Positions 9,800 to 28,077 of a DNA stretch of 35,052 nt are shown piece after piece. Numbering within the stretch: the stretch's first letter is position 1; each line of letters opens with the position of its first letter. Below the pieces are notes generated by a model. That model was not told the DNA's origin. It did no database searches and saw only the letters and a program-made list of their open reading frames with translations. This DNA is from Streptococcus sp. HSISM1 (GTDB lineage Bacteria; Bacillota; Bacilli; Lactobacillales; Streptococcaceae): NCBI RefSeq assembly GCF_000448565.1, contig NZ_CM002128.1, positions 349,678-384,729 of the forward strand, read 5' to 3'. Made by a program: the position numbers and the translations under genes.

Positions 9800-10660
9800 A
9801 ATTCTTTTGTATATTCACTACAATAAATCAGACGAACTAAGTGGCCATGTTCTTTACCAATTGGAACAAATAAGACCACTTTTTTCTCGAGTAATTTTCA
9901 TATCCAACAGTCATTTAGATCAGAATCACATAGAAAAATTGAAAATGATTGGAATATTTGAAATTATTCAAAGAGAAAATATCGGATTTGATTTTGCAGC
10001 TTGGCGAGATGGAATGAAATACGTTGGTTTTGATCATTTGGAAAAGTATGATTCTGTGACATTGATGAATGATACATGTATAGGTCCTCTTTGGTCATTG
10101 GAACCTTATTTTAGTTCATTTGAATCAGCTATAGATTGCGATTTTTGGGGAATGACAAACTTTAAAAAACGAAGTATTTTCAAGAACATGTCCAAAGTTA
10201 CTTTGTATCTTATTCTCAAGCGGTAGTATCATCTAAGGTTTTTCAAAAATTTTGGATGAGTATCAAAAATTTTGAAAATGTTAGACAAGTAATTGATTGC
10301 TATGAAACTAAATTGACATCTAAATTAAAAAAATCAGGTTTTAACTATCAAGTGGTTTTTAATACTTTGCACGAAAATTCTGATGAAATGGTTCATCCTG
10401 ATTTTTCTTACTATAAACCTTTTAAAATATTAGAACATCGTGTTCCAGTTTTAAAAGTTAAAGCAATTCAGGCGCATCCTCTTCAAGCTGACCAGTTAAA
10501 AAATAAAATAAGAGAAGTTTCAGAATTTCCAATTGAAATTTTAAATAGTGTCTATTCTTCAATAGAATTTTTTTCTGTTGAAAATGAACAAACAGAAAGA
10601 TACACTTTATTAAAAAAAGTGCGAAATAAAATTAAAAGAACAATAGGAAGAAAAGGATAA
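9792..10660 (+). pseudogene. RgpF-like rhamnan synthesis protein, broken by one missing base
   Basis: A single gene split into two frames. The first part, from ATG 9792, reads ILLYIHYNKSDELSGH and ENIGFDFAAWRDGM, with LMNDTCIGP and DCDFWGMTN, the core of the RgpF domain. After the six-A run at 10164-10169 the frame fails and stops at 10226. Reading one frame over from the same point gives KYFQEHVQSYFVSYSQ and then runs without a gap to the stop at 10660. One extra A restores a 289-residue protein. RgpF domains are involved in rhamnan backbone synthesis; this one is about half the length of S. mutans RgpF (583 aa), lacking a second half. The stop overlaps the following ATG (TAATG). The break is probably a sequencing error. 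Confidence 0.8.
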
Positions 10661-13164
10661 TGGATTTAAATAAGATTTATAGCTTTTATAATAACTATCT
10701 TAAAAAACGTATTCTAAAAATTATTCTATTCTCTCTTGCGTTTGCATTATTAATTTTAAATGTTATTAATATGCAGTTTACAGTGAAGTCACATTATCGT
10801 ATACAAGAGGTTTCTTATTTTAATAGTTCAATATTATTAATCGGTATTTCTAGTCTCTATTTGGGAATGATATTGTCAAAAATTTGGAATAAGAAATTTT
10901 TTATTAAATTAGGAGTGATCTATGGATTGTATTTATTATTTTCATATATACTTGATGCTAGTCTAAGAGTAAATGAAAAACAGTTTAATTTTTTTAAGAG
11001 CTTGCAATCCTCTTTTCTTCAAACAGATTTCATATTTTATATTGCTTTAATTTTTATATTCGCTTTTGTCTATCATTATTTGATTTCTGTATTTTTCCCA
11101 TTGTTTGAAAAATATCTAATTCCAATTTCGAATGATCGAGAAATATATACATTTATTTTCTATGCATTTTCTTTAACAGCTTTTTGTTTTTCTGATAGTA
11201 AATTTTTTAACGCCGTAATGGGGAGTAATTTCATTACTCAATTTCTTGAAAATAATATTATAAAACTTACGACTCCTACTTTAATAGAACTAGATAAACT
11301 GATTTTAACCTTGGTTATCATTGTTTTCTTTATTTCTTGTTATATTGTAAAAGGGATAAATGAATTAGAAAATAATAAACCGGGATTTGGCTTGGTGGTT
11401 CTTACGAGTGTTGTTTTTTCTATACTATTAAATTATTTTCTTCAATATAGTATACGAACAGATGTAATCGTAATGGAAAAACACATTTTTCCGGGGGCTA
11501 CACTGTTTCAAATTAGCATTTTTTTTTCTGTGTTTTTGTTTCTGTACTCTATTATCAACGAGTATCTGTTGACTACCATCATAAATATATTGCTTATTAT
11601 TGGAATTTCAATTTCAAGTTATTTAAAATATCAGTTCCGCCAAGAACCATTGTTACCAAGTGATTTAAGTTGGTTGAAAAATCCAGGATCACTTTTAGGA
11701 TTTGTTGGATCAAGTTCTTATTTATATGTTTTTGTATTAATAGTTTTCTTTTCATTAATTTATTGGTTTTTTAAAGATATATTTCTTTATGGTAAAGTAT
11801 TTAAAGCACAACTGGTTAGATTTGCAACAATTCTTTTTATTCTATTTTTCTTTTCTACTGTCTACTATTCCTTTAAAAATAGGCAAGATGGTAAAATGAG
11901 TGAACATATTCCAGTATTAGCAAACTTAAATAATCGGTATGATATTGCATGGTTTGGAAATACAGTTAATGCGCAAATGAAATCAAATAGCTATGTATGG
12001 TTTTCTCAGATGACATCCGATATTATGCATAAACCTGAAAAGTACAGTAAAACTTCTATTAAAAAGATTGAAGAAAAGTACCATTTAAAATCAGTAGAAA
12101 TAAATAAATATCGAAATCAATTCATCAATGAACAAACTGTAATTTATGTATTAAGTGAAAGTTTTTCAGATCCATCAAGAATAGAAAAAGTTCAAGTTTC
12201 ATCAAATCCAATTCCTAAAATTCAAGGAATAAAGAGCAGAACAACTAGTGGATTGATGAAATCTGATGGGTATGGAGGTGGGACTGCTAATATGGAATTT
12301 CAAACGTTAACAGGATTGCCAATGTACAACCTTTCTCCGAGCATTTCTATTCTATATACTCAAGTAGCACCTAATATGAAATATTTTCCTTCTATAAGTA
12401 ATTATTTTGAACCTAAGAATCGAGATGTTATTCATATTGCAAGTCCTAGTAATTATTCAAGAAATGTAATATATGGGAATTTAAAATTTAATAAATTTAT
12501 ACATTATGGAAACAAAGGAAATAAAGGATATAATGTTGGTGGGAATTATAGTGATGATTCAACTTATCACTTAATTGAAGAAAATCTGAATAAGAATAGT
12601 CAATTTTTCTCTGTGATTACAATGCAGAACCATACTCCGTGGACGGAACTGAATCCTATAGATATGAGTGCGAGTTATCCAGGATTTTCGGATGGACAAA
12701 ACAAATCTTTATCATCGTATGTGAGAATGCTTTCACAAACCGACACCGCTACCCAATCCTTCCTTGAAAGTCTTTCTAAAATAGATAAGAAGATTACAGT
12801 GGTATTCTATGGGGATCACTTGCCAGGACTTTATCCTGAGTCCGCCTTTAAGAATAATCCGGAGAGTCAGTATCAGACAGACTACTTCATTTGGAGTAAT
12901 TTTGATGCACCGAAATTGAATTATCCTTTGGTCAATTCAAGTGATTTCTCTGCTATGGTCTTTGAACAGACCAATTCAAAAGTTTCACCTTACTATGCTT
13001 TGTTGACGGAAGTATTGAAAAAAGCAAGTGTCGATAAAAAGGCCTTAGAAGGGGAAGCACAAGAGATTGCAGAGGATTTGAAAATGGTTGAATACGACCT
13101 GATTAGTGGGAAAGGTTACCTTTCTAAAGACTTCTTTAAAGTCCCAACCAACAAATCCAATTAA
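10660..13164 (+). CDS. GacH/SccH-like glycerol-phosphate transferase (LTA-synthase-type sulfatase fold)
   Basis: An 834-residue membrane enzyme. The first 430 or so residues contain about ten to twelve hydrophobic helices. The extracellular C-terminal domain has VLSESFSDPSR, GGGTANMEFQTLTGLP (the conserved nucleophile-threonine region of the LTA synthase/phosphoglycerol transferase family), TMQNHTPW and VFYGDHLPGLYP (metal-binding Asp/His). Length and position at the end of a rhamnose-polysaccharide cluster match GacH of S. pyogenes and SccH of S. mutans, which transfer glycerol phosphate onto polysaccharide side chains. From about 12720 the base composition becomes noticeably less A+T-rich, so the enzyme's 3' end looks like conserved flanking DNA joined to a divergent 5' part. 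Specificity is inferred. Confidence 0.8.
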   Translation: MDLNKIYSFYNNYLKKRILKIILFSLAFALLILNVINMQFTVKSHYRIQEVSYFNSSILLIGISSLYLGMILSKIWNKKFFIKLGVIYGLYLLFSYILDASLRVNEKQFNFFKSLQSSFLQTDFIFYIALIFIFAFVYHYLISVFFPLFEKYLIPISNDREIYTFIFYAFSLTAFCFSDSKFFNAVMGSNFITQFLENNIIKLTTPTLIELDKLILTLVIIVFFISCYIVKGINELENNKPGFGLVVLTSVVFSILLNYFLQYSIRTDVIVMEKHIFPGATLFQISIFFSVFLFLYSIINEYLLTTIINILLIIGISISSYLKYQFRQEPLLPSDLSWLKNPGSLLGFVGSSSYLYVFVLIVFFSLIYWFFKDIFLYGKVFKAQLVRFATILFILFFFSTVYYSFKNRQDGKMSEHIPVLANLNNRYDIAWFGNTVNAQMKSNSYVWFSQMTSDIMHKPEKYSKTSIKKIEEKYHLKSVEINKYRNQFINEQTVIYVLSESFSDPSRIEKVQVSSNPIPKIQGIKSRTTSGLMKSDGYGGGTANMEFQTLTGLPMYNLSPSISILYTQVAPNMKYFPSISNYFEPKNRDVIHIASPSNYSRNVIYGNLKFNKFIHYGNKGNKGYNVGGNYSDDSTYHLIEENLNKNSQFFSVITMQNHTPWTELNPIDMSASYPGFSDGQNKSLSSYVRMLSQTDTATQSFLESLSKIDKKITVVFYGDHLPGLYPESAFKNNPESQYQTDYFIWSNFDAPKLNYPLVNSSDFSAMVFEQTNSKVSPYYALLTEVLKKASVDKKALEGEAQEIAEDLKMVEYDLISGKGYLSKDFFKVPTNKSN

Positions 13165-13257
13165 AAGGAGAGCTAGCAGGTAAAAATCTTTCTGATTTTG
13201 GCTGTCTGGCTCCCTTTTTTTTGTTTTTATGCTAAACTATTAGATGGGGGTACGCTC

Positions 13258-13734
13258 ATGATTAAGATGTTTGGAAAGGTCCATTATCATTGGCAACCGG
13301 ACTTATCCGTTCTTGTGACTTATTGGTCCATTGCAGTGATTCCGGTCTTTATTGGACTGGCCTTGATGTATGAGAGCTCTAGTGTGCCAACGCTAGTTTT
13401 GTTTTCGTTCTTTTTATTTATGGCCTTGCTCGCGATTGGGGTCCATCGTTACTTCACGATTTATGAGGATGGGATCTTGCGGATTATTACTGCCAATCCT
13501 TTTACTCCAATCAAGGTGAAGATTGACTCGATCGAAAAGGTCGAAGTAAATAAGAAGTCGATCAAGCTCATTTTTAATGATGGTTCGCGCAGCCGGACAT
13601 TCTGTATGCGCAAATGGCCGAAAAAATACTTTATCAATGCACTTGCCTTAAATCCCTATTTTAAGGGTGAAGTAATCTTGACGGATAATTTCATCCATGT
13701 GGATTACTATGAGATGTATTATGCAGACAAATAA
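13258..13734 (+). CDS. ebsA: EbsA-family small membrane protein
   Basis: A 158-residue protein with two hydrophobic helices (about residues 22-42 and 46-64), followed by a basic cytoplasmic-looking domain with YFTIYEDGILRII and MRKWPKKYF. This resembles the streptococcal EbsA family, which commonly sits next to a ferredoxin gene and cmk; its biochemical role is not established. The ATG at 13258 has GGGGGT just upstream and begins the conserved region, whereas the open frame back to 13198 reads through what looks like leader DNA (TGCTAAACT, a possible extended -10). It converges on the ferredoxin gene. Confidence 0.7.
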   Translation: MIKMFGKVHYHWQPDLSVLVTYWSIAVIPVFIGLALMYESSSVPTLVLFSFFLFMALLAIGVHRYFTIYEDGILRIITANPFTPIKVKIDSIEKVEVNKKSIKLIFNDGSRSRTFCMRKWPKKYFINALALNPYFKGEVILTDNFIHVDYYEMYYADK

Positions 13735-13758
13735 AAAGCCCTCTTAATCTTTTAAGAG
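13732..13758 (-). terminator. Terminator of the ferredoxin gene
   Basis: On the minus strand a stem of CTCTTAA with TTAAGAG (13741-13758) spans the ferredoxin stop codon and is followed by GGGC and then five T (plus-strand AAAAA at 13733-13737). It also separates the convergent ebsA-like gene. Confidence 0.6.
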
Positions 13759-13944
13759 AGCATGAGTGGGGCATTCTTTAATAGCCTCGAGAACATCGTT
13801 TGTGACAGGGACTTCCTTTTCAAGGAGGTCGTCGTCTTCAGTACCAAATTTAACGATGCCATTGTCATGGTAATCAAATAATTCAGAATAGGTCTGACAG
13901 AGACCGCAAGCGATGCAACGATCTGGTATTAACGTAACTTTCAT
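13744..13944 (-). CDS. fdx: Small ferredoxin
   Basis: A 66-residue acidic protein with CIACGLCQTY near residue 10 and IKECPTHAL near the C-terminus, the Cx2Cx2C...CP arrangement of single-cluster bacterial ferredoxins (4Fe-4S, possibly 3Fe-4S). It is a cytoplasmic electron carrier; its partner in streptococci is not evident from the neighbourhood. It is transcribed opposite to everything around it, divergent from the LysM gene with only 45 bases between the two starts. The ribosome site is weak (AGAAG). Confidence 0.9.
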   Translation of the reverse strand: MKVTLIPDRCIACGLCQTYSELFDYHDNGIVKFGTEDDDLLEKEVPVTNDVLEAIKECPTHALLKD

Positions 13945-13989
13945 ACTTCTATTGTAATGATTTTTACGAGAAAAAACAAGGAGGAAGTC

Positions 13990-14445
13990 ATGGCAAAAGA
14001 ACCATGGGAAGAAGATATTTACGATGATGGAGAAGAAACATTGAAAAGAACGAGTAAGTTAAATGGAATAAAAGCAGATCGTCTGTTGACGATTTTAGCC
14101 ATTATTTTCTTTGTAGTAGTAGTGGCAATGGTCTGCTTGTTGATTTTCCTTTCAACAGGTGGTAGCAATAAATCCAAACAAATGTCTGGCTTCTACAATG
14201 GTGAGACCAAAGTTGAACAGAAATCATCGGCTCCTGCAGCACAAACTGACCAAGCAGATGCTAAAAATAGTTCAAAAGATGAGAATTCTGAAGAAGGTAC
14301 GATCACTGTTCAAGCAGGTGAAGGGGAAGCAGCGATCGCTGCACGTGCTGGTATTTCCATCGCCCAATTGGAACAGTTAAATCCTTCTCATATGTCTACA
14401 GGATCATGGTATGCGAATCCTGGTGATGTCGTTAAGATTCAGTAG
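13990..14445 (+). CDS. LysM-domain surface-associated protein (SAG1386/EF1546 type)
   Basis: A 151-residue type II membrane protein. Residues 1-30 are acidic and cytoplasmic ([13 protein letters not shown]), one hydrophobic helix follows (about 36-57, [17 protein letters not shown]), then a Ser/Gln/Asp-rich linker and a C-terminal LysM-like domain ([19 protein letters not shown]...LNPS...PGDVVKIQ) expected to bind peptidoglycan outside the cell. The ATG at 13990 follows AAGGAGGAAG; the open frame extends to 13957 without a better site. It lies 14 bases before cmk, so the two are likely co-transcribed. The family is widespread in streptococci and enterococci with no firm function. Confidence 0.85.
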
Positions 14446-14459
14446 GAGTTGAGGACAGC

Positions 14460-15140
14460 ATGAAACAAATTCAAATTGCCATTGATGGACCGGCTTCTAG
14501 TGGAAAATCCACGGTTGCAAAGATCATTGCCAAGGATCTAGACTATACGTATCTAGATACGGGGGCTATGTATCGTGCGGCGACTTACCTAGCTTTGCAA
14601 AATAATCTGACAGCCGAACAGGTAGATGACTTGTTAGCCCTTTTAGATCAATATCCAATTAGTTTTGGTCGTTCGGAAGAAGGAGAGCAACTTGTTTTTG
14701 TAGCAGACGTGGATATTACCCATCCAATTCGTGATAACCAAGTGACCAATAATGTTTCGTGGGTCGCAGCGCTTGCGCCTATCCGTGAAAAGTTGGTGGC
14801 TCTTCAGCAAGAGATTGCAGAGAAGGGTGGAATCGTCATGGACGGTCGTGATATTGGGACAGTTGTCTTACCAAATGCAGAGCTGAAGATTTTTTTGGTC
14901 GCTTCTGTTGAGGAGCGGGCAGAACGTCGCTACAAGGAAAATGTTGAAAAGGGCATCACAGCGGATCTTGAATTGTTAAAAAAAGAAATCGCTGAACGTG
15001 ACTATAAGGACAGCCACCGTGCTGTGTCTCCTTTGAAACCTGCAGCAGATGCCATTCATTTTGACACAACGGGTGTTGGAATTGCAGACGTTGTGGCCTT
15101 TATTGAAGAAAAAGCAAAAAAACTTCTTGACAAAGAATAA
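14460..15140 (+). CDS. cmk: Cytidylate kinase
   Basis: A 226-residue enzyme that phosphorylates CMP and dCMP with ATP in pyrimidine salvage. The P-loop GPASSGKST is at residues 10-18, and [13 protein letters not shown] and [11 protein letters not shown] are the CMP-binding signatures of Cmk. Length is typical. GGAGTTGAGGAC precedes the ATG. It sits 14 bases after the LysM gene and its 3' end contains the -35 box of the infC operon. Confidence 0.95.
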
Positions 15141-15155
15141 AAAACTTGATATCAT
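15127..15155 (+). promoter_or_regulatory. Promoter of the infC-rpmI-rplT operon
   Basis: A perfect -35 TTGACA (15127-15132, inside the last codons of cmk) is followed after 17 bases by an extended -10, TGA-TATCAT (15150-15155). This is the best consensus promoter in the window and it leads straight into the leader of the translation-factor operon. Confidence 0.75.
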
Positions 15156-15162
15156 ATAAAAG

Positions 15163-15300
15163 TTGAGAAAAGCAGAAGTGAGAACTTCTCGCCTTGTGAC
15201 GCAAGTTGCCTGGCCCCTACGGATCAAGTTTCAGTAATGAAATACATCATGTAGTTCGGGCCTGTATTGCAGGTCCGTTCTTTGTTTTTCTCGAATAATA
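15163..15300 (+). ncRNA. Ribosomal-protein L20-type leader with attenuator
   Basis: The 5' leader of infC contains AGAAG/CTTCT pairing near 15175-15191, a G+C-rich middle (CCTGGCCCCTACGG) and a final stem CGGGCCTG/CAGGTCCG at about 15258-15278 followed by a broken T tract (TTCTTTGTTTTT). By family knowledge, low-G+C Gram-positive infC-rpmI-rplT operons are autoregulated by L20 through such a leader and terminator. The stems are visible here; L20 binding is inferred. Confidence 0.65.
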
Positions 15301-15317
15301 AAAAAGAGGTGAAAACC

Positions 15318-15839
15318 ATAGCAAAGCAAGACTTATTCATCAATGATGAAATTCGTGTACGTGAAGTTCGCTTAATCGGTCTTGAAGGTGAGCAATTGGG
15401 TATCAAACCACTTAGCGAAGCGCAAGCACTTGCAGACGACGCTAATGTTGACTTGGTTCTCATTCAACCTCAAGCTAAACCTCCTGTTGCGAAAATTATG
15501 GACTACGGTAAGTTCAAATTTGAGTACCAGAAGAAGCAAAAAGAACAACGCAAAAAACAAAGCGTTGTGACCGTGAAAGAGGTTCGTTTGAGCCCAGTGA
15601 TTGACAAGGGTGATTTCGATACAAAACTTCGCAATGCTCGCAAATTCCTTGAAAAAGGAAATAAAGTGAAGGTATCCATTCGCTTTAAGGGTCGTATGAT
15701 TACCCACAAAGAGATTGGTGCTAAAGTTTTAGCCGACTTCGCTGAAGCGACACAAGATGTGGCGATCATCGAACAACGTGCTAAGATGGATGGACGTCAA
15801 ATGTTCATGCAATTGGCGCCAGCAACTGACAAGAAATAA
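15318..15839 (+). CDS. infC: Translation initiation factor IF-3, probable AUA start
   Basis: A 173-residue protein that binds the 30S subunit and enforces start-codon fidelity. It contains [29 protein letters not shown] and [14 protein letters not shown], all diagnostic of IF-3. I place the start at ATA 15318 because AGAGGTG lies six bases upstream and the resulting N-terminus ([13 protein letters not shown]) has the same spacing to the first conserved Arg as B. subtilis IF-3, which starts at AUU. Alternative in-frame starts are GTG 15309 (no good SD) and TTG 15282 (inside the leader's T tract). Non-AUG starts are a known feature of infC autoregulation. First gene of the operon with L35 and L20. 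Confidence 0.92.
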
Positions 15840-15872
15840 TCTGTCAGAAAGTTAAAAAAAGGAGAAAATATC

Positions 15873-16072
15873 ATGCCAAAACAAAAACACACCGCGCATC
15901 AGCTAAACGTTTCAAACGTACAGGTTCTGGTGGACTTAAACGTTTCCGTGCTTACACTTCTCACCGTTTCCACGGAAAAACTAAGAAACAACGTCGTCAT
16001 CTTCGTAAAGCATCTATGGTGCATGCTGGAGATTTCAAACGTATCAAAGCAATGCTTACTCGCTTGAAATAA
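15873..16072 (+). pseudogene. rpmI: Ribosomal protein L35, broken by one missing A
   Basis: The gene sits between infC and rplT after a GGAG site and begins MPKQK. After the five-A run at 15883-15887 the frame is wrong; shifting by one base gives [31 protein letters not shown] and KAMLTRLK to the stop at 16072, which is the complete L35 sequence. Adding one A yields exactly 66 residues, the normal streptococcal length. L35 is a 50S subunit protein, and a loss at codon 6 would be costly, so an undercalled homopolymer is the likely cause. The alternative 64-residue reading frame from the same ATG is not a real protein. Confidence 0.92.
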
Positions 16073-16121
16073 TCGCGTATTCGTAAGTAAAGAATTCTAG
16101 GAAATATTGGAGGAAATATAA

Positions 16122-16481
16122 ATGGCACGTGTTAAAGGTGGCGTTGTATCACGCAAACGTCGTAAACGTATTCTTAAATTAGCTAAAGGTTACTATGGAG
16201 CTAAACATATCTTGTTCCGTACTGCAAAAGAACAAGTAATGAACTCTTACTACTATGCATACCGTGACCGTCGTCAAAAGAAACGTGACTTCCGTAAATT
16301 GTGGATCACACGTATCAATGCGGCAGCTCGTTTGAACGGACTTTCATACTCACAATTGATGCATGGTTTGAAATTGGCTGAGATCGAAGTTAACCGTAAA
16401 ATGCTTGCTGACTTGGCTGTTAACGATGCAGCAGCTTTCACAGCTCTTGCAGATGCAGCTAAAGCAAAACTTGGTAAATAA
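16122..16481 (+). CDS. rplT: Ribosomal protein L20
   Basis: A 119-residue, very basic 50S protein needed early in large-subunit assembly. The N-terminus [19 protein letters not shown] and [21 protein letters not shown] are diagnostic. TTGGAGG precedes the ATG. It is the last gene of the infC operon and by family feeds back on the operon leader. A strong terminator follows eleven bases after the stop. Confidence 0.97.
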
Positions 16482-16492
16482 TGTTTATAATA

Positions 16493-16518
16493 GGCTGGGC
16501 AAAAGTTGTCCAGCCTTT
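16493..16518 (+). terminator. Terminator of the infC-rpmI-rplT operon
   Basis: A ten-pair stem, GGCTGGGCAA with TTGTCCAGCC (one G-T pair), around a three-base loop and followed by TTT. It also forms the first end of the intergenic repeat described below. Confidence 0.8.
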
Positions 16519-16673
16519 GATGTATGATAGAAATAACTGTATGACGCAGTGGTTGATTGGTATCTTTATTCGCTTTTTAAGCTCTAAAGATGACCTATGT
16601 TGACGGAAACTATGTTTCCTTTATCTGCAACCTTCAACATTCTCCCAGACTGTTGAAGCTGTGCGGAGGTGGG
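16493..16673 (+). repeat. Structured intergenic repeat, copy 1
   Basis: This 180-base non-coding stretch shares landmarks, in the same order, with the reverse complement of 26667-26837. These are GGCTGGG-CAAAAGTT, then GACGCAGTGGTTGA about 50 bases in, and CTGTGC-GAGGTGGGA at the far end. The middle differs and contains hairpins GGAAAC/GTTTCC and CTTCAAC/GTTGAAG. It has no open frame of note. It looks like a diverged member of a dispersed streptococcal spacer repeat. Confidence 0.6.
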
Positions 16674-17401: not shown

Positions 17402-17448
17402 GGTGTTAACGGAAAAACATAAAAATATAAGAAAGGTAGGAGAAAGTG

Positions 17449-17880
17449 ATGACAAACCAAGAGAAACATCTTGAGGAAAATAAAGAACATAGTAAGATCA
17501 GTGAAGATTATTCCAATTCTGTATCTGTTCAGAATCCTCCAAAAGAAAATAGCTTACATTCTATTCTTCTTTCAGCGACATTTTACTTATCCATTATCTA
17601 TCTTGTATTGTTTGTCTTTTTCTTTAATATTTTGGGATTTTTCATGTTGTTGATTTTTCTAACACCAAACTTCTTAGGTGTTGCTATTGGAACCATTTTA
17701 CTTGGACTAGGGATGAAGAAGGGGAATAAAAGCCTCCTCTATACGAGTGTTGGACTCTATCTGCTGTCTATCATCTTGGGTTTTGAACTAGATTGGGAAA
17801 TTTTTCGAATCGCTCCGTTACTGCTAGGTATTCTGGTTTTAATTGGAACACTCTTAGTTGAAGAAGAGAAAAGCTCTTAA
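17449..17880 (+). CDS. Four-helix membrane protein, paralogue A, unknown function
   Basis: A 143-residue protein not recognised as a named family. Residues 1-40 are hydrophilic (Glu/Lys/Ser-rich, probably cytoplasmic) and about four hydrophobic helices follow. The end reads TILLGLGMKKGNKSLLY, then LDWEIFRIAPLLLGILVLIGTLL, then a charged tail EEEKSS. The same pattern closes the next two genes, so this is a tandem family. The ATG at 17449 follows TAGGAG at 17437-17442; GTG 17446 is possible. It has a possible promoter upstream and a 134-base gap to paralogue B. Confidence 0.75.
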   Translation: MTNQEKHLEENKEHSKISEDYSNSVSVQNPPKENSLHSILLSATFYLSIIYLVLFVFFFNILGFFMLLIFLTPNFLGVAIGTILLGLGMKKGNKSLLYTSVGLYLLSIILGFELDWEIFRIAPLLLGILVLIGTLLVEEEKSS

Positions 17881-18014
17881 TCAAAAAATGGGTATGGTCG
17901 ACTCTACTCAATAAAAAGTATTCGGGTCGATCAAAGAGATAGTTAAATCAGTTCTTCCGCTCTATTTTAGGCGCTATTATTTGAAAGAATAACTAAAAAT
18001 GTTGGGAGAAAGTT

Positions 18015-18446
18015 ATGACAGATCAACAGAAAAATCCTGAAGTAGATAAAGAAAAAGAGGCATTCGTTTCAGATGAAAGTCTTCTTCCTAACAATGAAAT
18101 GAAGCCAGAAAAGAGAGTTGGGACTTCTGCAATACTTTCTTTTGCCCTGTTCATAGCCATCGCTTATACAGTTTTACTTTTATTAGGTCTCTTTTCAATG
18201 GGAGCGTGGGCTGGTGGCTTTTTATACTTTTTGGGAATCCATATGATTAGCTTTGTGATTGCAACTATCCTGCTTTGGAATGGAAATGTGAATGGCAATA
18301 AAGCAACTCTTTATATAGCAGCAGCTATTTATGTTTTTTCATTTATTGCTGCGGGTGATCCGGATTGGCTGATTAATCATATACCACCGCTTGTGGTAGG
18401 AGTGATGGTATTGATTGGAACTGTATTGTTAAAAAATGAAGAGTGA
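18015..18446 (+). CDS. Four-helix membrane protein, paralogue B, unknown function
   Basis: A 143-residue protein, the same length as paralogue A. A hydrophilic N-terminus of about 35 residues (NPEVDKEKEAFVSDE) is followed by four hydrophobic segments and the shared ending IATILLWNGNVNGNKATLY, PDWLINHIPPLVVGVMVLIGT and a charged tail. GGGAGAAAG precedes the ATG. A terminator follows nine bases after the stop. The shared features with A and C are the repeated ATILL-x2-G-x3-G-x-K turn and the W-x5-P-L-x2-G-x-LVLIG helix. The function is unknown. Confidence 0.75.
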   Translation: MTDQQKNPEVDKEKEAFVSDESLLPNNEMKPEKRVGTSAILSFALFIAIAYTVLLLLGLFSMGAWAGGFLYFLGIHMISFVIATILLWNGNVNGNKATLYIAAAIYVFSFIAAGDPDWLINHIPPLVVGVMVLIGTVLLKNEE

Positions 18447-18454
18447 TGATAGCA

Positions 18455-18481
18455 GGTAGGATGTTCAATCCTATCTTTTTT
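18455..18481 (+). terminator. Terminator after paralogue B
   Basis: The stem GGTAGGAT/ATCCTATC (one G-T pair) with a five-base loop is followed by six T. Confidence 0.75.
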
Positions 18482-18523
18482 ATTAATTCCTGAGAGTAAG
18501 CGAGGAAAACGATTACAAACTAT

Positions 18524-18531
18524 GTTATAAT
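18524..18531 (+). promoter_or_regulatory. Promoter of the third membrane paralogue
   Basis: TATAAT at 18526-18531, with a G two bases upstream (ATG-T-TATAAT), lies 51 bases before the ATG and after the terminator of paralogue B, so gene C is transcribed on its own. Confidence 0.5.
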
Positions 18532-18581
18532 TTAAATAAATGAATCGTTAAATACTTTTCTTAGAAAGCGGAGGAGAATCT

Positions 18582-19807
18582 ATGTCTAGAAAAAAATGGT
18601 ATGGTATACTGCTAATTCTTGAAGCAATTCTTTATCTTGTTTCTTATGGTAGTAGTCTAGTAGAGAGCTATAATGTCCAAAATTTAAATGGAAATACACC
18701 ACTGTTCACTGTCTCTAGTATTTTTTCTATATGGAATGGAATGATTATTTGCTGGGTAATTTGGAGAATCATGAAGCAGCGTTTAAATGTTGAAGGATTG
18801 ATAGCTGCTCTTCTCCTCTCAATTACCCAACTACTGATGTTTTTTTACCACCTTTCTCCCCAACAAATCTGATGAACATTTCCTTTGTGCTAAATATCAT
18901 TTGTTTAATATGGATTTGCCTGCTTATAAAGAATGTAGAAATGAGGGAGCTTTTAAACAATTGGAAAAGTAAAGATGGTTGGAAATCATCGATAGCTTAT
19001 TTAGTACTATTTGTTGCCTCTACAAATATTTCTCCACTATTTATATTGATTGGTATGGATAGAACGAGTGATATTTACGCTTTTACACTTCGATACATTT
19101 TAATGGAGTTATTTATTCTACTTCTGATTAATGTTATGATCACAAGTACAAGTGAGAAACTTCAGAAAGTATTTTCTCTCTTGCTCATTTTATCTTCTCT
19201 TGTTGTGATAGGTGCAGTATACTCTTTCATCTCTCGTATAAGCTTTTACGGTCTCTTTTATCTTCTCCTATCGATTTATATTGTTTGTCGTGTTTTTGGT
19301 TTGCTTGAGAAAGTTGCAGTTAGCTGGGAGTCCAAGGTGAAAGTACAAGATCTATCATCTATTGACACTAAACCAGAGATGGCGGACTCTCAAGTAGAAG
19401 GAGACATAGATGTAAACGATCAGTTGAATGCTGATATACGATCAAACAATGATGAAGAAAATTCGCCAAAAAGAATTATTCTTCAGTCGCCTTGGTTATG
19501 GAGCGCACTTATAATAGTAGTCTGTCACCTTGGTATTATGATTTTTCCTTTATTTTTAGGAAACCCCATGTATCTACTGATCTTATATATTGGTGCCATC
19601 CATTATATTTGTTTTATGATTGCGACTATATTACTTTTCATAGGTATGAGAAAAGGAAGTAAAGGACTCCTAAATGCGGCAGCTATCTCATTTATTATTT
19701 CCATTATAGGTACGCTAGATCCTTATTGGACAGGTCCAAATATTTTATCCTTGGTTTTAGGAGTCCTGGTATTTATTGGAGGTATATTATTTAAAAATGG
19801 AGACTGA
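18582..19807 (+). pseudogene. Large membrane protein, paralogue C, split by one missing T
   Basis: Two adjacent reading frames look like one gene. The first (18582-18872, GGAGGAG before its ATG) encodes about three helices and stops at TGA 18870-18872. The second frame starts at ATG 18872 with no ribosome site. At the seven-T run 18840-18846, one more T joins them as MFFLPPFSPTNLMNISFV, which makes a continuous 408-residue protein. It has roughly eight to ten helices, a hydrophilic loop near residues 250-300, and a C-terminal copy of the domain seen in paralogues A and B (IATILLFIGMRKGSKGLL, LVLGVLVFIGGILF). The alternative is two coupled genes, but the missing RBS argues against it. Confidence 0.7.
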
Positions 19808-20206: not shown

Positions 20207-21397
20207 ATGTCAGAACGTAAACTTTTCACGTCTGAATCAGTATCTGAGGGGCATCCAGATAAGATTGCAGACCAAATTTCAGATGCTATTTTAGATGCTA
20301 TTTTAGAGCAAGATCCAGAAGCTCACGTGGCTGCCGAAACAGCTGTTTATACTGGTTCCGTGCATGTCTTTGGTGAGATTTCAACGACTGCTTATGTGGA
20401 TATTAACCGTGTGGTTCGTGATACCATTGCAGAGATTGGGTATACCAATACGGAATATGGATTCTCAGCTGAAACTGTAGGAGTACACCCATCTTTGGTG
20501 GAACAATCTCCTGATATTGCCCAAGGGGTTAATGAAGCCTTGGAAGTTCGTGGGAATGCAGATCAAGATCCACTTGATTTGATCGGAGCAGGAGACCAAG
20601 GTCTCATGTTTGGTTTTGCAGTGGATGAAACAGAAGAACTCATGCCATTGCCGATTTCACTCAGCCACAAGTTGGTTCGTCGTTTGGCTGAACTTCGTAA
20701 GTCTGGGGAAATTAGCTATCTTCGTCCAGATGCCAAGTCACAAGTTACTGTTGAGTACGATGAAAATGACCGCCCAGTGCGTGTGGATACGGTGGTTATT
20801 TCAACCCAACATGATCCAGATGTCAGCAATGAACAAATCCACGAAGATGTGATTAACAAGGTCATCAAAGAAGTGATTCCAGCTTCTTATCTAGATGAGG
20901 AGACTAAATTCTTCATCAACCCAACAGGTCGCTTTGTTATTGGTGGGCCTCAAGGGGATTCCGGTTTGACAGGTCGTAAGATCATCGTGGATACTTATGG
21001 TGGTTATTCACGTCACGGTGGTGGTGCCTTCTCTGGTAAGGATGCCACTAAGGTAGACCGTTCCGCTTCTTATGCAGCTCGCTATATTGCCAAGAACATC
21101 GTGGCAGCAGGTCTTGCTAAGAAGGCAGAAGTGCAATTGGCTTATGCCATTGGGGTAGCTCAACCTGTCTCTGTTCGGATCGATACCTTTGGTACTGGAA
21201 CAGTCGCTGAAAGTAAGCTTGAAAAAGCAGCACGTGAGCTCTTTGATCTTCGTCCTGCAGGGATTATCCAAATGCTGGATTTGAAACGTCCAATCTATCG
21301 TCAAACAGCGGCTTATGGCCATATGGGACGAACAGATATTGACCTTCCATGGGAACATTTGGACAAGGTAGAAGCCTTGAAAGAAGCTGTAAAATAA
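20207..21397 (+). CDS. metK: S-adenosylmethionine synthetase
   Basis: A 396-residue cytoplasmic enzyme that makes SAM from methionine and ATP. Diagnostic sequences are SEGHPDK at residues 13-19, [10 protein letters not shown], and the loop [16 protein letters not shown]. Length is normal for the family. GGGGGGAC lies six bases before the ATG and doubles as the regulatory arm of the S_MK riboswitch. The gene stands alone between a promoter and a terminator. Confidence 0.98.
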
Positions 21398-21413
21398 TTA
21401 GTTGAAATGGAAA

Positions 21414-21444
21414 AGTTAGGGTCAAGTTGATCCTAGCTTTTTTT
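21414..21444 (+). terminator. Terminator of metK
   Basis: The imperfect stem AGTTAGGGTCAA/TTGATCCTAGCT is followed by seven T. Confidence 0.75.
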
Positions 21445-21484
21445 CGTTTGAAAATTCCTACAGATGGAAAAATAGGTCAATCTG

Positions 21485-21493
21485 TGGTATAAT
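21485..21493 (+). promoter_or_regulatory. Promoter of murA
   Basis: An extended -10 TGG-TATAAT (21485-21493) lies about 95 bases before the expected murA start. Confidence 0.6.
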
Positions 21494-21588
21494 AGATGCA
21501 GTATTTTGAATACGTTGTCCCTTTTATTTCCGTTACAAAAAACGATAGTAAAAGGAAAAAGACTTGAAAGAGCTAATAAATTATTAAG

Positions 21589-22847
21589 ATGAAAAAATTG
21601 TAATAAATGGTGGTCGCCCTCTAAAAGGAGAGGTGACCATTAGTGGTGCAAAAAATAGTGTAGTAGCCCTGATTCCGGCGACCATTCTGGCGGATGATAT
21701 CGTGACCCTTGATGGGGTACCGGATATCTCCGACGTGGCGAGCCTGATTGAAATCATGACCATCATGGGGGCTAAGATCGAGCGCAAAGAAGACAGTTTG
21801 ATTATTGATCCACGTGGGGTGAAGAATATGCCCATGCCATTTGGAAAGATCAACAGTCTGCGAGCTTCCTATTATTTCTATGGCAGCCTACTAGGACGCT
21901 ATGGTCAAGCAACGGTTGGACTGCCTGGTGGGTGTGACCTTGGACCACGTCCGATCGATTTGCATTTGAAGGCCTTTGAAGCAATGGGAGCCGCTATGAC
22001 CATGGATGGCTCTAGTATGAAACTTGCGACTAATGGCAAGCCTCTTCAAGGAGTTAACATCTACATGGATACTGTTAGTGTCGGTGCAACGATCAATACG
22101 ATTTTAGCAGCAGTCAAGGCTGAAGGTCGGACAGTGATCGAAAATGCGGCTCGAGAACCTGAAATTATCGATGTGGTAACCTTGCTCAACAACATGGGAG
22201 CCCATATTCGTGGAGCAGGAACGGATATCATTATCATTGATGGTGTTCAGAATTTGCATGGAACGAGACATCAAGTAATTCCAGATCGCATCGAAGCAGG
22301 AACCTATATTGCCCTTGCAGCTGCTATTGGAGAAGGTATCCAGATCAATAATGTCCTGTATGAGCATTTGGAGAGCTATATTGCCAAGTTAGAGGAAATG
22401 GGTGTGCGCATGACCATTTCTGAAGATAGTATCTTTGTAGAAAAGCAGACGGGCTTGAAGGCGATCCAGATTAAAACGTCTCCTTATCCTGGTTTTGCGA
22501 CTGATTTGCAACAACCGATCACACCTTTGCTCTTAACGGCTGCAGGACGTGGGCGCATTGTTGATACGATTTATGAAAAGCGGGTCAACCATGTACCAGA
22601 ATTGGCTAAAATGGGGGCCACCATTTCGACCTTGAACGACCACATTATTTATGAAGGGCCAAATCAATTGACAGGATCCAGTGTGAAAGCGACGGATCTT
22701 CGAGCTGGTGCGGCTTTAGTGATCGCAGGTCTCATGGCTTCTGGAACAACAGAAATTACAAATGTGGAATACATCCTTCGCGGGTATTCAGATATTATTC
22801 AAAAATTGACCCAACTTGGAGCAGATATCCAGTTGGTAGAGGAATAG
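21589..22847 (+). CDS. murA: UDP-GlcNAc 1-carboxyvinyltransferase (MurA), start region frame-broken
   Basis: The first committed enzyme of peptidoglycan synthesis, adding enolpyruvate to UDP-GlcNAc. The body has [15 protein letters not shown] (with the conserved Lys-Asn pair), [17 protein letters not shown] (catalytic-loop Cys), [13 protein letters not shown] and the C-terminal [11 protein letters not shown]. The true N-terminus [14 protein letters not shown] is encoded just upstream of the GTG at 21633, but in that frame no start codon exists and a stop lies at 21585. An ATG at 21589 is out of frame by one base at the six-A run 21592-21597 (ATG AAA AAA TTG TAA). Restoring one base gives exactly 419 residues, as in pneumococcal MurA. 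GTG 21633 would remove 15 conserved residues and has an unsuitable start context. Streptococci carry two MurA paralogues; I cannot say which this is with certainty. Confidence 0.9.
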
Positions 22848-22903
22848 TGACAGGGCTAGAGATCTGATAGTGGCAGCTGGATACACGAACAATGGAGTTT
22901 GAG

Positions 22904-23455
22904 ATGAATATTTGGACGCACTTAGCTGCCTATTCACTAATTGAAACACAAAGGTTGTATTTACGACCTTTTCTCTTTGAGGATGCGGGAGATTTTTATA
23001 AGATTGCTTCGAATCCTGAAAATTTACAATTTATCTTTCCTGCACAAGCCGATCTTGCTGAAACTCAATATGTACTAGCCAACTATTTCATGAAAAATCC
23101 CTTGGGGGTTTGGGCGATCTGTGATAAGGAAACCAATCAGATGATCGGTTCCATCAAGTTTGAAAAGTTGGATGAAATCAAGGGTGAAGCTGAGTTAGGC
23201 TACTTTTTACGCAAAGATTTTTGGGGGAAGGGCCTGATGACAGAAGCGGTCAAAGAGTTGGTCTATCTATCATTTGAAAAATTTCAACTGAAGGAGCTTA
23301 AGATTGTCACCCATGTTGAAAATGCAGGGAGTCAAAAGGTCGCTTTAAAGGCTGGCTTTCGTCTCTTTCGTCAATTCAAAGGGAGTGACCGCTATACGCG
23401 TAAAATGCGCGATTATTATGATTTCCGCCTAGGTAGAGGGGACTTCTATGAGTAA
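22904..23455 (+). CDS. GNAT-family N-acetyltransferase (RimJ-like)
   Basis: A 183-residue acetyltransferase. IETQRLYLRPFLFEDAGDFY at the start, IGSIKFEKL, then AELGYFLRKDFWGKGLMTEAVKEL (the acetyl-CoA pyrophosphate loop) and VENAGSQKVALKAGF are the standard GNAT motifs, closest to the RimJ/RimL type. The substrate is unknown. The ATG at 22904 follows GGAG at 22894-22897; ATG 22892 is in frame but lacks a site. It overlaps the next gene by 8 bases, so it is coupled to spxR. Confidence 0.85.
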   Translation: MNIWTHLAAYSLIETQRLYLRPFLFEDAGDFYKIASNPENLQFIFPAQADLAETQYVLANYFMKNPLGVWAICDKETNQMIGSIKFEKLDEIKGEAELGYFLRKDFWGKGLMTEAVKELVYLSFEKFQLKELKIVTHVENAGSQKVALKAGFRLFRQFKGSDRYTRKMRDYYDFRLGRGDFYE

Positions 23456-24725
23456 ACACCAAGAGATTTTAGACTATCTCGAAAAATTACCGATTGGAAA
23501 ACGGGTCAGTGTCCGCAGTATCTCCAATTTTTTGAATGTCAGTGATGGGACGGCCTATCGTGCCATTAAAGAAGCTGAAAATCAAGGAATTGTCGAAACG
23601 CGTCCTAGAAGCGGGACCATCCGTGTCAAATCGCAAAAAGCTGTACTAGAGCATTTGACCTATCGGGAAATTTTAGAAATCACCGGCTCTGAAATATTAG
23701 CAGGTGAAGAGGGACTCGAAAAAGAATTTAATAAATTTTATATTGGTGCCATGACGGAAAAGCACGTCCTAGACTATGTGTCTGAAGGTGGGCTTTTGAT
23801 CGTGGGTGACCGTACTAGCATCCAACGATTGGCTCTTAAACATGACAATGCGGTCTTAGTGACAGGTGGCTTTGAAGTGAGTGAGGATGTGATTGATCTG
23901 GCCAATCAGGTACAAATCCCAGTCATACGAACTTCACACGATACCTATACCGTCGCGACTATGATCAATAAGGCCTTGTCTAATATGCAGATCAAGACGG
24001 ATATCTTGACAGTCGAGCAGGTCTATCGGCCCTTCCATGAGTACGGCTATCTTTCTGAGACGGATACGGTCCGGGATTATTTAGATTTGGTTCGAAAGAA
24101 TCGCTTTAGTCGCTTTCCGGTTGTCAATCAGCACCAGATGGTAGTGGGCGTCGTAACCATGAGAGATGCTGGAGATAAGGCGCCTCAGACGACCCTTGAT
24201 AAGGTGATGTCACGGACCATTTTTACCACTAATTTGTCCACCAGCATTGCGACGATTAGCCAACGGATGATCGCTGAAGATTATGAAATGATTCCTGTTG
24301 TTCGTAATAACCAGACCTTGCTGGGTGTTATTACGCGTCGAGATGTCATGGATCGGATTAGCAAGGTGCAATTTTCGAGCTTACCAACCTTTAGTGAGCA
24401 GATTGGTCAAAAGATTCAGACAGAGAACGACCATTACCAATTCACAGTGGAACCGAGTATGCTGGAGAAAAGCGGTGTTTTGGCCAATGGGGTCATGATC
24501 GAAGTGCTGATGAAGGTTGTTCGCAAGATGATGCAACACAGTGGGCGTAGCTTGATTGTCGAACAGTTGATTATCAATTTTTTACAGGCTGTGCAGGTGG
24601 ATGACGTGATCCGTATTGAACCCCAACTTGTTCGGCGAACCAGACGTTCAGCCTTGGTTGATTTTAGCTTGTATTTAGATCTGCAGCTAGTCGCGAAAGC
24701 AACCATTACGATTAAGATTAATTAA
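23448..24725 (+). CDS. spxR: HTH-DRTGG-CBS-hotdog regulator (SpxR/YtoI type)
   Basis: A 425-residue four-part protein. Residues 1-60 are a GntR/HTH-like domain (VSVRSISNFLNVSDGTAYRAIKEAE), 75-185 a DRTGG-like domain, 190-305 a CBS pair (RFSRFPVVNQHQMVVGVVT; YEMIPVVRNNQTLLGVITRRD), and 315-425 a hotdog (thioesterase-fold) domain. This order is that of SpxR of S. pneumoniae, which influences spxB (pyruvate oxidase) expression and is thought to sense energy or metabolic state through its CBS/hotdog parts. The neighbourhood murA-GNAT-spxR-map resembles that in pneumococcus from memory. No signal or membrane segment is present. Confidence 0.8.
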   Translation: MSKHQEILDYLEKLPIGKRVSVRSISNFLNVSDGTAYRAIKEAENQGIVETRPRSGTIRVKSQKAVLEHLTYREILEITGSEILAGEEGLEKEFNKFYIGAMTEKHVLDYVSEGGLLIVGDRTSIQRLALKHDNAVLVTGGFEVSEDVIDLANQVQIPVIRTSHDTYTVATMINKALSNMQIKTDILTVEQVYRPFHEYGYLSETDTVRDYLDLVRKNRFSRFPVVNQHQMVVGVVTMRDAGDKAPQTTLDKVMSRTIFTTNLSTSIATISQRMIAEDYEMIPVVRNNQTLLGVITRRDVMDRISKVQFSSLPTFSEQIGQKIQTENDHYQFTVEPSMLEKSGVLANGVMIEVLMKVVRKMMQHSGRSLIVEQLIINFLQAVQVDDVIRIEPQLVRRTRRSALVDFSLYLDLQLVAKATITIKIN

Positions 24726-24745
24726 ACAAAAGAAATGAGGAGACA

Positions 24746-25606
24746 ATGATTACATTAAAATCACAACGTGAAATTGAAGCCATGGATCGTGCAGGAGATT
24801 TCCTTGCCAGCATCCATATTGGATTACGTGACTTGATCAAGCCAGGGCTTGACCTATGGGAAGTAGAAGAATATGTCCGTCGTCGCTGTAAAGAAGCCAA
24901 TGTCTTGCCGCTTCAAATCGGTGTAGAAGGTAGTCTCATGGACTATCCTTATGCGACTTGCTGTGGTTTGAATGACGAAGTAGCCCATGCTTTTCCACGT
25001 CACGTCATTCTCAAAGATGGGGATCTCCTCAAGGTAGACATGGTCTTGTCAGAACCGCTTGATAAGTCTGTTTTGGATGTATCGAAATTAGATTTTGATA
25101 ATGTAGCGCAAGTCAAGAAATACACGGAGTCTTATAGTGGTGGCTTGGCGGACTCTTGCTGGGCTTATGCGGTTGGAAATGTTTCGCAAGAAGTCAAAGA
25201 TTTGATGGACGTGACCAAAGAATGTCTCTATAAGGGAATTGAGAAAGCGGTCGTTGGCAATCGCTTGGGAGATATTGGTGCAGCGATTCAAGAGTATGCA
25301 GAAAGCAAAGGCTATGGCGTGGTGCGTGATTTGGTCGGACACGGTGTCGGGCCTACCATGCATGAAGAACCAATGGTCCCGCATTATGGTCGTGCTGGAC
25401 GCGGTCTTCGCTTACGTGAAGGGATGGTCTTGACGATTGAGCCAATGATTAATACCGGTACTTGGGAGATTGATACAGATATGGAAACTGGTTGGGCCCA
25501 TAAGACCCTCGACGGTGGCCTTTCTTGTCAATACGAGCATCAATTTGTGATTACAAAAGATGGTCCAGTGATCTTGACTAGTCAAGGTGAAGAAGGAACA
25601 TACTAA
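24746..25606 (+). CDS. map: Methionine aminopeptidase, streptococcal insert type
   Basis: A 286-residue metalloenzyme that removes the initiator methionine. The metal and active-site segments are visible as GLNDEVAHAFP, DLLKVDMVL, GHGVGPTMHEEP, TIEPM and YEHQFVIT. Between the first metal ligands it carries an insert of about 27 residues (around KSVLDVSKLDFDNVAQVKKY) known from streptococcal type I enzymes. GAGGAG precedes the ATG. It follows spxR by 20 bases and is probably in the same transcript. Confidence 0.95.
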   Translation: MITLKSQREIEAMDRAGDFLASIHIGLRDLIKPGLDLWEVEEYVRRRCKEANVLPLQIGVEGSLMDYPYATCCGLNDEVAHAFPRHVILKDGDLLKVDMVLSEPLDKSVLDVSKLDFDNVAQVKKYTESYSGGLADSCWAYAVGNVSQEVKDLMDVTKECLYKGIEKAVVGNRLGDIGAAIQEYAESKGYGVVRDLVGHGVGPTMHEEPMVPHYGRAGRGLRLREGMVLTIEPMINTGTWEIDTDMETGWAHKTLDGGLSCQYEHQFVITKDGPVILTSQGEEGTY

Positions 25607-25688
25607 AACTAGAGAGGAAAGAATGGAGCTGAAGGCAAGTGTCTGGTTTCGCTCTTTGCTCTTTTTTAGTAAAATGGGGAGGTGACGA

Positions 25689-26660
25689 ATGAAAAAGGTC
25701 CTACAAAAAGTACTGGGACAGCCATTTATAAAGGGCTTCGTGCGGTTTTATCAGAGTGCAGAGTCTGACATCACTAGCATTGCGGTGGCCTATTATTTGC
25801 TGATCTCCATTTTCCCTTTGATGCTGATTGCAGCCAATATTTTACCCTACTTTCATATTCGTCCCACTCAGATTCTTTTAAGCTTACAAAAAGTCTTGCC
25901 AGCCTCCTTATATCGAATAGTGGCACAGATGATTTCGAGTGTCTTGACCAAACCTTCGACAGGCTTACTGAGTTTCTCGATTATTTCTGCTTTGTGGATC
26001 TTCTCTCAGAGCATTGCCTACCTCCAAAAAGCCTATAACAAGAGTTATGGGGTGGAAAAGGAGCGTGGTATTATCTGGGGGCGACTCTTTAGCTTCCTGA
26101 TCAGTTTTGCCTTGCAGGGCTTGTTTGGACTCTCGCTGATCCTTTCCATGTTTGGGAAAATGATCGTTCGTTATCTCTATCGGACCTTTTCATTTGATCG
26201 GACGATTTATGTACGTTTACTGAATTTGACAGAGCCGACCATCTACCTCTTACTTTTTGTCAGTCTGGTCTTGCTCTATTACACCCTTCCAAATGTCAAA
26301 ATTCCAAAATTTAGATATGTATTGCCAGGGGCGACCTTTGTTGTTGCTGTCCTGTATGCGATCTTGAATATCTTTTGGAAATATGTGGATCGTTATGTGA
26401 GTCATTTCTTAGATGCTCGTTTCTTCGGTTCTGTCGTCCTAGCGGTCATTATGTTCTGGTTCATCTTGGTAGCTAAAATCATGATTATTGGTTGTATTTT
26501 AAACGCCAGTATCCAGTTTGCTAGAGAAGCCAAGTTCCAAACGCGCAATGGAGAAATTGTCTCCAAATTAAAAACGGAAGAAGTAGCTTTTCGGCATAAA
26601 GAAGCTTCACAAACATTAAAGCGACGGTTACGCTTGAGAAAAAAAGATAAAATAGAATAA
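25689..26660 (+). CDS. YihY/BrkB-family membrane protein
   Basis: A 323-residue protein with six hydrophobic helices, matching the YihY/BrkB (once called RNase BN) family. ESDITSIAVAYYLLISIFPL near residue 28 is the family's first helix signature, and LPGATFVVAVLYAILNIFWKY is in the second half. The basic tail (RRLRLRKKDK) is cytoplasmic. GGGGAGGTG precedes the ATG. The function is unsettled; the RNase BN assignment has been disproved for the family. It follows map by 82 bases with a possible weak promoter between. Confidence 0.85.
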   Translation: MKKVLQKVLGQPFIKGFVRFYQSAESDITSIAVAYYLLISIFPLMLIAANILPYFHIRPTQILLSLQKVLPASLYRIVAQMISSVLTKPSTGLLSFSIISALWIFSQSIAYLQKAYNKSYGVEKERGIIWGRLFSFLISFALQGLFGLSLILSMFGKMIVRYLYRTFSFDRTIYVRLLNLTEPTIYLLLFVSLVLLYYTLPNVKIPKFRYVLPGATFVVAVLYAILNIFWKYVDRYVSHFLDARFFGSVVLAVIMFWFILVAKIMIIGCILNASIQFAREAKFQTRNGEIVSKLKTEEVAFRHKEASQTLKRRLRLRKKDKIE

Positions 26661-26666
26661 GGGATA

Positions 26667-26837
26667 GTGGGACAGAAATCGGTCATTCGTTAGAATTCGA
26701 TTTCGTCGTCCCACCTCTGCACAGTTGAGTAGGGCTGTAAAAGCTGATGAAATCAGCGTAGTAGAGCCCACTCAACCACTGCGTCTTGCTCGACAATTCA
26801 AAAATAATGGAGAGGCTAGAACTTTTGTCCCAGCCTC
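26667..26837 (-). repeat. Structured intergenic repeat, copy 2
   Basis: A 171-base non-coding element made of nested inverted repeats. GTGGGAC (26667-26673) pairs with GTCCCAC (26708-26714). GTTGAGT-GGGCT (26724-26736) pairs with AGCCC-ACTCAAC (26765-26776), enclosing a GCTGAT/ATCAGC hairpin (26743-26757). GAGGCT (26812-26817) pairs with AGCCTC (26832-26837), followed by six T. Read on the minus strand it shares ordered blocks with 16493-16673. Confidence 0.7.
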
Positions 26838-26843
26838 TTTTTT
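26812..26843 (+). terminator. Terminator after yihY (end of the repeat)
   Basis: GAGGCT.../...AGCCTC with six T at 26838-26843. The T run points to use for plus-strand transcripts coming from map-yihY. Confidence 0.65.
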
Positions 26844-26851
26844 CTTATCTA

Positions 26852-26890
26852 TTTTGTTGTATTTGCAACAAAAATGTGTTATGCTATTGT
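26852..26890 (+). promoter_or_regulatory. marR promoter with a 22-bp palindromic operator
   Basis: TTTTGTTG (26852-26859) and CAACAAAA (26866-26873) form a perfect inverted repeat with a six-base centre. It covers the -35 TTGCAA (26863-26868), which is 16 bases before the extended -10 TGC-TATTGT (26882-26890). A MarR-family gene starts 22 bases later, so autorepression through this site is a natural inference. Confidence 0.6.
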
Positions 26891-26911
26891 CAATAGGAAA
26901 GGAGGAGTGAG

Positions 26912-27366
26912 ATGAGTATTTTGCGTGAGATTGGCATCATTGCGCGAGCACTGGATTCTATAGCAAATATTGAATTTCGAGATTTGGACCTGGCGCGTGG
27001 TCAATATCTTTACTTGGTGCGAATTGCCGAGCAACCTGGAATGATTCAGGAAGAACTCTCTGAAGTCCTGAAAGTAGATCGATCCACCGTTGCAAGGTCT
27101 GTAAAAAACTAGAAGAACGAGGCTTGATTCAACAGCGTCCAAGGGGTGAAAACCTTAAAATCAAGGAATGGGAATTAACTGAAAAAGGTAAGCAGATTTA
27201 CCCCTTCATTTTAGGGGAGCATCTTTACTCTGAGAGAACTGCTTTAAAAGGATTTTCCAAAAAAGAAGTCGCACAGTTAGAAGAGTACCTCATCCGAGTT
27301 CGTGAGAATATCACCTTGGATTGGGAACTAGTTAAAAAAGGTAAAAAAGAAATTATAGTGAGGTAA
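26912..27366 (+). pseudogene. MarR-family transcriptional regulator, broken by one missing A
   Basis: A winged-helix regulator. The first frame (GGAGGAG before ATG 26912) encodes LREIGIIARALDSIAN, LDLARGQYLYLVRIAE and the recognition part LSEVLKVDRSTVARSVK, then stops at 27110 after the six-A run 27103-27108. The other frame continues directly as KLEERGLIQQRP (the wing) and WELTEKGKQIYP to the stop at 27366. One additional A restores a 151-residue protein of normal MarR size. It sits behind a palindromic operator and four bases before the B3/B4 gene, suggesting they form one autoregulated unit. The ligand is unknown. Confidence 0.85.
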
Positions 27367-27370
27367 AGCA

Positions 27371-28077
27371 ATGAAAGTAACAGTCGATCAAGAATTTTGG
27401 GAGTTGTTCCCAACAGCTAGAATTACAGTGATGTCCTTGTATGGCATTGATAACACAGTAGATGAAGCCAAGGATCCTTATTTCAAAGAATTGTTGGACA
27501 AGGGTGCCAAGAGAGCATGGGAATTTATCGATGAAGAAAACTATACCCAGAGTGAGTTCGTTCAAGAGTGGCGCCAAGCTTTTAGCAAGTTTAAAACAAA
27601 AAAGGAGCCCGATCTTCCATCGAAGCACTCTTAAAACGGGTTCACCAAGGTCGTGAATTTTATCCGATTAATCCCTTGGTTGATTTATACAATAGTGTGT
27701 CTATGGCTTATGCCCTTCCTTGTGGAGGAGAAGACATGGATAAATTAGTGGGTGGACTTTCTCTAGGACAAGCGAAAGGAGGCGAACCGTTCTTTCCATT
27801 AGGAGCTGACGAAGATGCGCCAGCTTTGGAAGGGGAGATCATCTACTACGACCAAGAAGGCGCCGTTTGTCGTTGTTTGAATTGGCGTGAGGCTCAAAGA
27901 ACCATGCTAACTGAAGATACCAAGGACGCTATTTTGGTCATTGAAGCCATCAACGAGGAGCAGGCCAAACGGGCACAAACAGCCATGCAGGAATTGAAAG
28001 ATCTAGCTAAGGATTATTTTGGGGTTGAAGGCACCATCTATCAATTAAGTGCAGAGCAAGCAAGTATAGAAGTTTAA
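27371..28077 (+). pseudogene. B3/B4-domain protein, broken by one missing A
   Basis: This resembles the stand-alone B3/B4 (phenylalanyl-tRNA synthetase beta-type) domain proteins. The first frame starts MKVTVDQEFWELFPTARI and fails after the six-A run 27598-27603. The continuing frame gives GARSSIEALLKRVHQG, then YPINPLVDLYNSVSMAYALP and GGEDMDKLVGGL, the B3/B4 core, and ends at 28077. One added A makes a 235-residue protein. Stand-alone B3/B4 proteins may act on amino acids or mischarged tRNA, but this is not settled. It is co-oriented with marR, 4 bases apart, without its own promoter. Confidence 0.8.

Follow-up and report, generated by a model that had tools for sequence, protein, structure and literature searches.

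Private one-base shortfalls at A/T runs split six genes in the single-contig genome of Streptococcus sp. HSISM1 and are very probably assembly errors

The window, by which we mean the whole stretch of DNA analysed (35,052 nucleotides), comprises bases 349,678-384,729 of the single-contig genome of Streptococcus sp. HSISM1, which has 2,334,492 bases. Large multi-domain glycosyltransferases are encoded in a polysaccharide gene cluster at window positions 47-10660. The RgpF domain occurs twice in this cluster, in a 1006-residue protein encoded at 47-3067 and in a broken gene at 9786-10660. Further downstream, an L20 leader (RF00558) at 15164-15292 precedes the infC-like, rpmI and rplT-like genes (infC and rplT were named by eye). 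Three tandem membrane protein genes, which look related by eye, lie at 17446-19807; the extent to which this stretch can be aligned varies among relatives, and the third gene (18582-19807) matches no Pfam family above the cut-off. An interspersed repeat of approximately 180 bases at 26663-26842 is found in at least 40 places in the genome, this copy included. The other 39 copies are 91-97% identical to it (scoring was limited to 40 of the 118 first-look candidates, each of which matched). The copy in the window is 95.6% identical to one in S. cristatus (L028), with flanks that are approximately 70% alike, and the alignments of two of our relatives (L128 and L130) break across it. Finally, a preQ1-II riboswitch (RF01054) at 28575-28681 is located ahead of a membrane protein gene at 28679.

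The initial annotation had reported six genes of the window as broken, each by the loss of one base from an A or T run, and had proposed a comparison with other genomes at the six sites. A search of 284 genomes of the genus returned a cluster of 17 genomes with 91-98% DNA identity over window positions 22,950-25,600; the next listed genome beyond this cluster has 75% identity over the same positions. Among named genomes, a scan returned a single member of this cluster, Streptococcus sp. F0442, with 89% identity over 18.8 kb; its alignment blocks coincide in coordinates and identities with those of relative G229, and the two probably represent one genome. The window is taken to belong to the S. 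parasanguinis/australis part of the genus. We compared the window with the matching stretch from all 17 relatives of the cluster, three of which (L116, L120, L123) end early, at contig ends or at the end of the requested range. The window does carry a split version of all six genes, whereas every comparable relative has them open as far as compared, and the breaks are private to the window among these close relatives. A private one-base shortfall is seen directly at five of the six genes, the exception being the rgpF-like gene.

The rgpF-like gene (9786-10660, forward strand, as are the other five) consists of two pieces, 9786-10226 and 10256-10660, which match successive parts of the PF05045 profile. 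In all seven relatives that match both pieces, the two share one open frame, of 289 residues in four relatives and of 581-582 residues in three. The longer proteins, taken as the best match in those three relatives, are more distant than the 289-residue ones. Three further relatives have just an end of the gene. Five relatives align here at the DNA level, but the alignment is too divergent for a safe net length, and we therefore assessed this gene by its frames.

In rpmI, encoding ribosomal protein L35 (15873-16067; PF01632), the frame is lost very near the start. The one-base shortfall is found at the exact normalised site against 17 of 17 relatives, all of which have an open frame of 66 residues. 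A search of the genome for a second rpmI copy found none; the broken gene is the sole L35 match. The third gene of the tandem membrane set (18582-19807) is split into pieces at 18582-18872 and 18872-19807 and is open in relatives. It is one base short against all 12 aligning relatives, which carry three different letters at this position, and whose open frames measure 408 residues (seven relatives) or 410-422 residues (five relatives). murA (21592-22847) also loses its frame near the start; the remainder is a single 404-residue frame from 21633, and this long piece matches PF00275. The shortfall is again at the exact normalised site against 17 of 17 relatives, in which the protein has 419 residues (14 relatives) or 427 residues (three relatives).

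The gene for the marR-family regulator (26912-27366; an intact relative matches PF01047) contains two breaks, one in the middle of the gene and a second one near the 3' end, which had been overlooked. Its first site is one base short against 13 of 15 relatives (five of five by a looser test), and all 15 have an open frame of 154 residues. In the B3/B4 domain gene (27371-28077; pieces at 27371-27634 and 27676-28077, with PF03483 on the second piece), the shortfall is at the exact normalised site against 15 of 15 relatives. The frame in the window stops at codon 87, while all 15 relatives are open from the ATG through the compared stretch of 174-226 codons. The initial annotation had also claimed that adding one base restores a family-typical protein every time. 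This is borne out by the frames of 289 (rgpF-like), 66 (rpmI), 408 and 419 residues seen in relatives. It does not hold for marR: since this gene has two breaks, the 151-residue product proposed for it is not family-typical, the relatives having 154 residues.

Shortfalls of the same kind occur between genes, where they are beyond what the initial annotation could have detected from frames. An intergenic stretch at 13198-13259 (forward strand) is one base short against 16 of 17 relatives, and the metK-murA intergenic stretch at 21425-21470 (forward strand) against 15 of 17; at the latter site, the run in the window is only three bases long. A further intergenic shortfall of one base near 16.7 kb is seen against six of six aligning relatives. 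The aligned part of the window yielded no private one-base excess, defined as a difference from at least 70% of at least five relatives; the systematic comparison of the window covered the positions between 9,700 and 27,900.

We then counted private length differences in a wider sample, consisting of 200 kb round the window and 40 kb round each of mutSL and polC, which lie 1.3 and 1.7 Mb from the window in contig coordinates. This sample was set against the matching stretches of five relatives, each assembled in one or two contigs. An event was called private if the net length difference was identical against every covering relative (at least three), and all six genomes were handled alike. The window and 280 kb of stretches together make up 315 kb, of which 194.5 kb, where at least three of the five relatives cover, were counted. 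The main counts are of one-base insertions and deletions; other sizes were put aside (in the genome of the window, one event of three bases and one of two), and the counted events exclude the rgpF-like site. Our coding mask requires an open frame of 90 residues, and rpmI and the B3/B4 gene are therefore labelled noncoding in the mask counts.

The genome of the window has 39 private one-base shortfalls and five one-base excesses in 194.5 kb, compared with 56 shortfalls and 33 excesses in 1,149 kb for the five relatives pooled (Fisher p = 0.002 for the bias of losses over gains). By the mask, the shortfalls split into 22 coding and 17 noncoding in this genome, as against 7 coding and 49 noncoding in the relatives (p = 9 x 10^-6). 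Coding shortfalls set against private substitutions give an odds ratio of 17.5 for this genome versus the relatives (p = 6 x 10^-13). With a looser coding call, the near region alone contains 15 coding shortfalls in 131.6 kb in this genome and 10 in 811 kb in the relatives. A/T runs of at least four bases are found at 37 of the 39 shortfalls (34 of 56 in the relatives) and runs of at least five at 32 of the 39 (22 of 56), leaving two of the 39 outside A/T runs of four or more. We also tallied by hand, with rpmI and the B3/B4 gene moved to coding, how many A/T runs of 5-7 bases are short: 22 of 841 coding runs and 9 of 292 noncoding runs, or 31 of 1,133 overall (approximately 1 in 37). Coding and noncoding runs are thus affected at near-equal rates, and there is no visible selection on the events. 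Shortfalls outnumber excesses by six to zero round mutSL and by five to two round polC, where two one-base excesses fall in one gene. The pattern is present in all three sampled regions of the chromosome, and the feature is therefore broader than the window. Private substitutions amount to 13.2 per kb, within the 9.6-20.6 per kb seen in the relatives, and their transition share is ordinary.

Chance or natural divergence was rejected as an explanation, as the five relatives were handled identically and lack the pattern. Some such events are nevertheless real, given that one relative (G066) also carries private coding shortfalls, five by the mask and six by the looser call. At the rate of the relatives, about 9-10 of the 39 shortfalls may be real. 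One of the coding shortfalls (in L140) has an opposite excess 30 bases away, and the two may form a real compensated pair. The excess over background is approximately 0.15 per kb, which by extrapolation would give some 350 events genome-wide if our sample is typical.

Several genes outside the window are also hit. In the deposited sequence, dnaE is broken twice within approximately 830 bases, at about 293-294 kb of the contig (L133): a PolC-family search finds frames of 725 and 295 residues at this locus, compared with 1040-1072 residues in five relatives. According to the sections consulted of two papers, B. subtilis possesses PolC as well as DnaE and cannot do without the latter (PMC5627055, PMC3290774). 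Also broken are aroE, aroC, an LCP-family gene, a DUF2130 gene, a glycogen-phosphorylase-family gene and an EsaA-like gene, as well as, below the family cut-off, a csm6-like gene and a MalF-like permease gene; several other broken genes match no family. A divergent MutS-like gene has a 205-residue frame at contig positions 1397318-1397962. The estimated completeness of this one-contig genome is 95.65%, compared with 99-100% in six relatives. Low completeness alone proves little, because some other one-contig genomes are also below 99% (G002, 93%; G072, 97%).

The six breaks are very probably assembly errors caused by uncorrected homopolymer undercalling, as the initial annotation had suggested, a reading that we draw from sequence comparison. 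Its support consists of the bias towards loss, the bias towards A/T runs, the occurrence in three regions, the lack of a clear depletion in coding sequence, the hits in dnaE, the normal substitutions, and the open mutS and mutL genes. A small fraction of the A/T runs across the chromosome, whether genic or not, would come out one base short in the consensus, and where such a run lies inside a gene, the called frame would break. The loss would have arisen in base calling or consensus building, most likely in a long-read assembly made without effective short-read polishing. Undercalling is favoured by the near-equal rates inside and outside of genes, as this is what is expected of errors that arise after the DNA has left the cell. 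The degree of undercalling appears to be moderate. The one-base breaks are most likely not a real biological feature, and the cells most likely carry intact copies of the six genes.

The alternatives raised by the initial annotation, a load of slippage mutations or a set of switchable genes, fit poorly, given that mutS and mutL are open and that off-states are absent from the compared relatives. In a mutator lineage devoid of mismatch repair, real slippage mutations would have piled up in homopolymers, and one-base events at homopolymers are in fact in excess in all three sampled regions. Such a lineage might also be suggested by the third, divergent MutS-like gene, whose frame is shorter than in five relatives (205 versus 555 residues), but the same artefact probably accounts for this short frame too. 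The events are mostly in one direction (39 to 5), there is no clear sparing of genic runs, and two of the events fall in dnaE, none of which sits well with a mutator. A defect in mismatch repair is also unlikely because the mutS and mutL frames, of 851 and 682 residues, are open, as in five relatives, and because the substitution load is normal, in rate as well as in transition share. We consider this explanation very unlikely overall. Phase-variable switches, with the runs turning the six genes on and off, are an extremely unlikely explanation. A frame change at a homopolymer is a known switch mechanism, for which the portions of the literature consulted give examples from Bordetella and Neisseria, along with a one-nucleotide insertion or deletion in Streptococcus pyogenes. 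The runs in the window are short (5-7 bases), however, and the comparable relatives are open at all six genes, with no off-state among them. Moreover, rpmI, murA and dnaE are among the genes affected, and runs between genes are struck about equally often.

It is also very improbable that the breaks are real, recent pseudogenes, or that transcriptional or translational slippage allows them to be read through. The sequence on either side of the breaks is still recognisable, but none of the six genes has a split frame in any comparable relative, and the breaks also strike genes such as rpmI and dnaE. Programmed frameshifting was considered and rejected: it would need a conserved shift site, and the split frame is present in no compared relative. 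If the short runs were real, the isolate would carry hundreds of fresh homopolymer losses, including those in dnaE, rpmI and murA, and would survive through transcriptional or translational slippage restoring enough product. We regard this scenario as extremely unlikely.

Homopolymer undercalling, our preferred explanation, is an ordinary finding as far as biology is concerned, dropped letters being a common sequencing artefact. Its value is that of a quality warning: claims about gene content, pseudogenes or metabolism made from this genome, for instance the loss of murA, rpmI, aroC or dnaE, need support from reads. The comparison of private insertions and deletions with private substitutions, inside and outside of genes, provides a simple control by which real gene loss can be told apart from assembly error.

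Among known systems, phase variation at simple sequence repeats resembles the present case in that a one-base change in a homopolymer shifts the frame. It differs in that the runs here are short, that no off-state is seen in the compared relatives, and that housekeeping genes and intergenic runs are struck alike. Homopolymer errors in long-read assemblies are the closer match. As described in the part consulted of one study, errors in long reads are predominantly short insertions and deletions linked to homopolymers, which fragment genes and lower completeness (PMC12007338), and the published error profiles, as far as covered by the excerpts seen, resemble the pattern in this genome (PMC12007338, PMC8011154). 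We found no difference from this class, to which we assign the breaks on the strength of their pattern. The likeness, drawn from the same excerpts, extends to the scattered one-base deletions in homopolymers, the many broken genes and the lower completeness.
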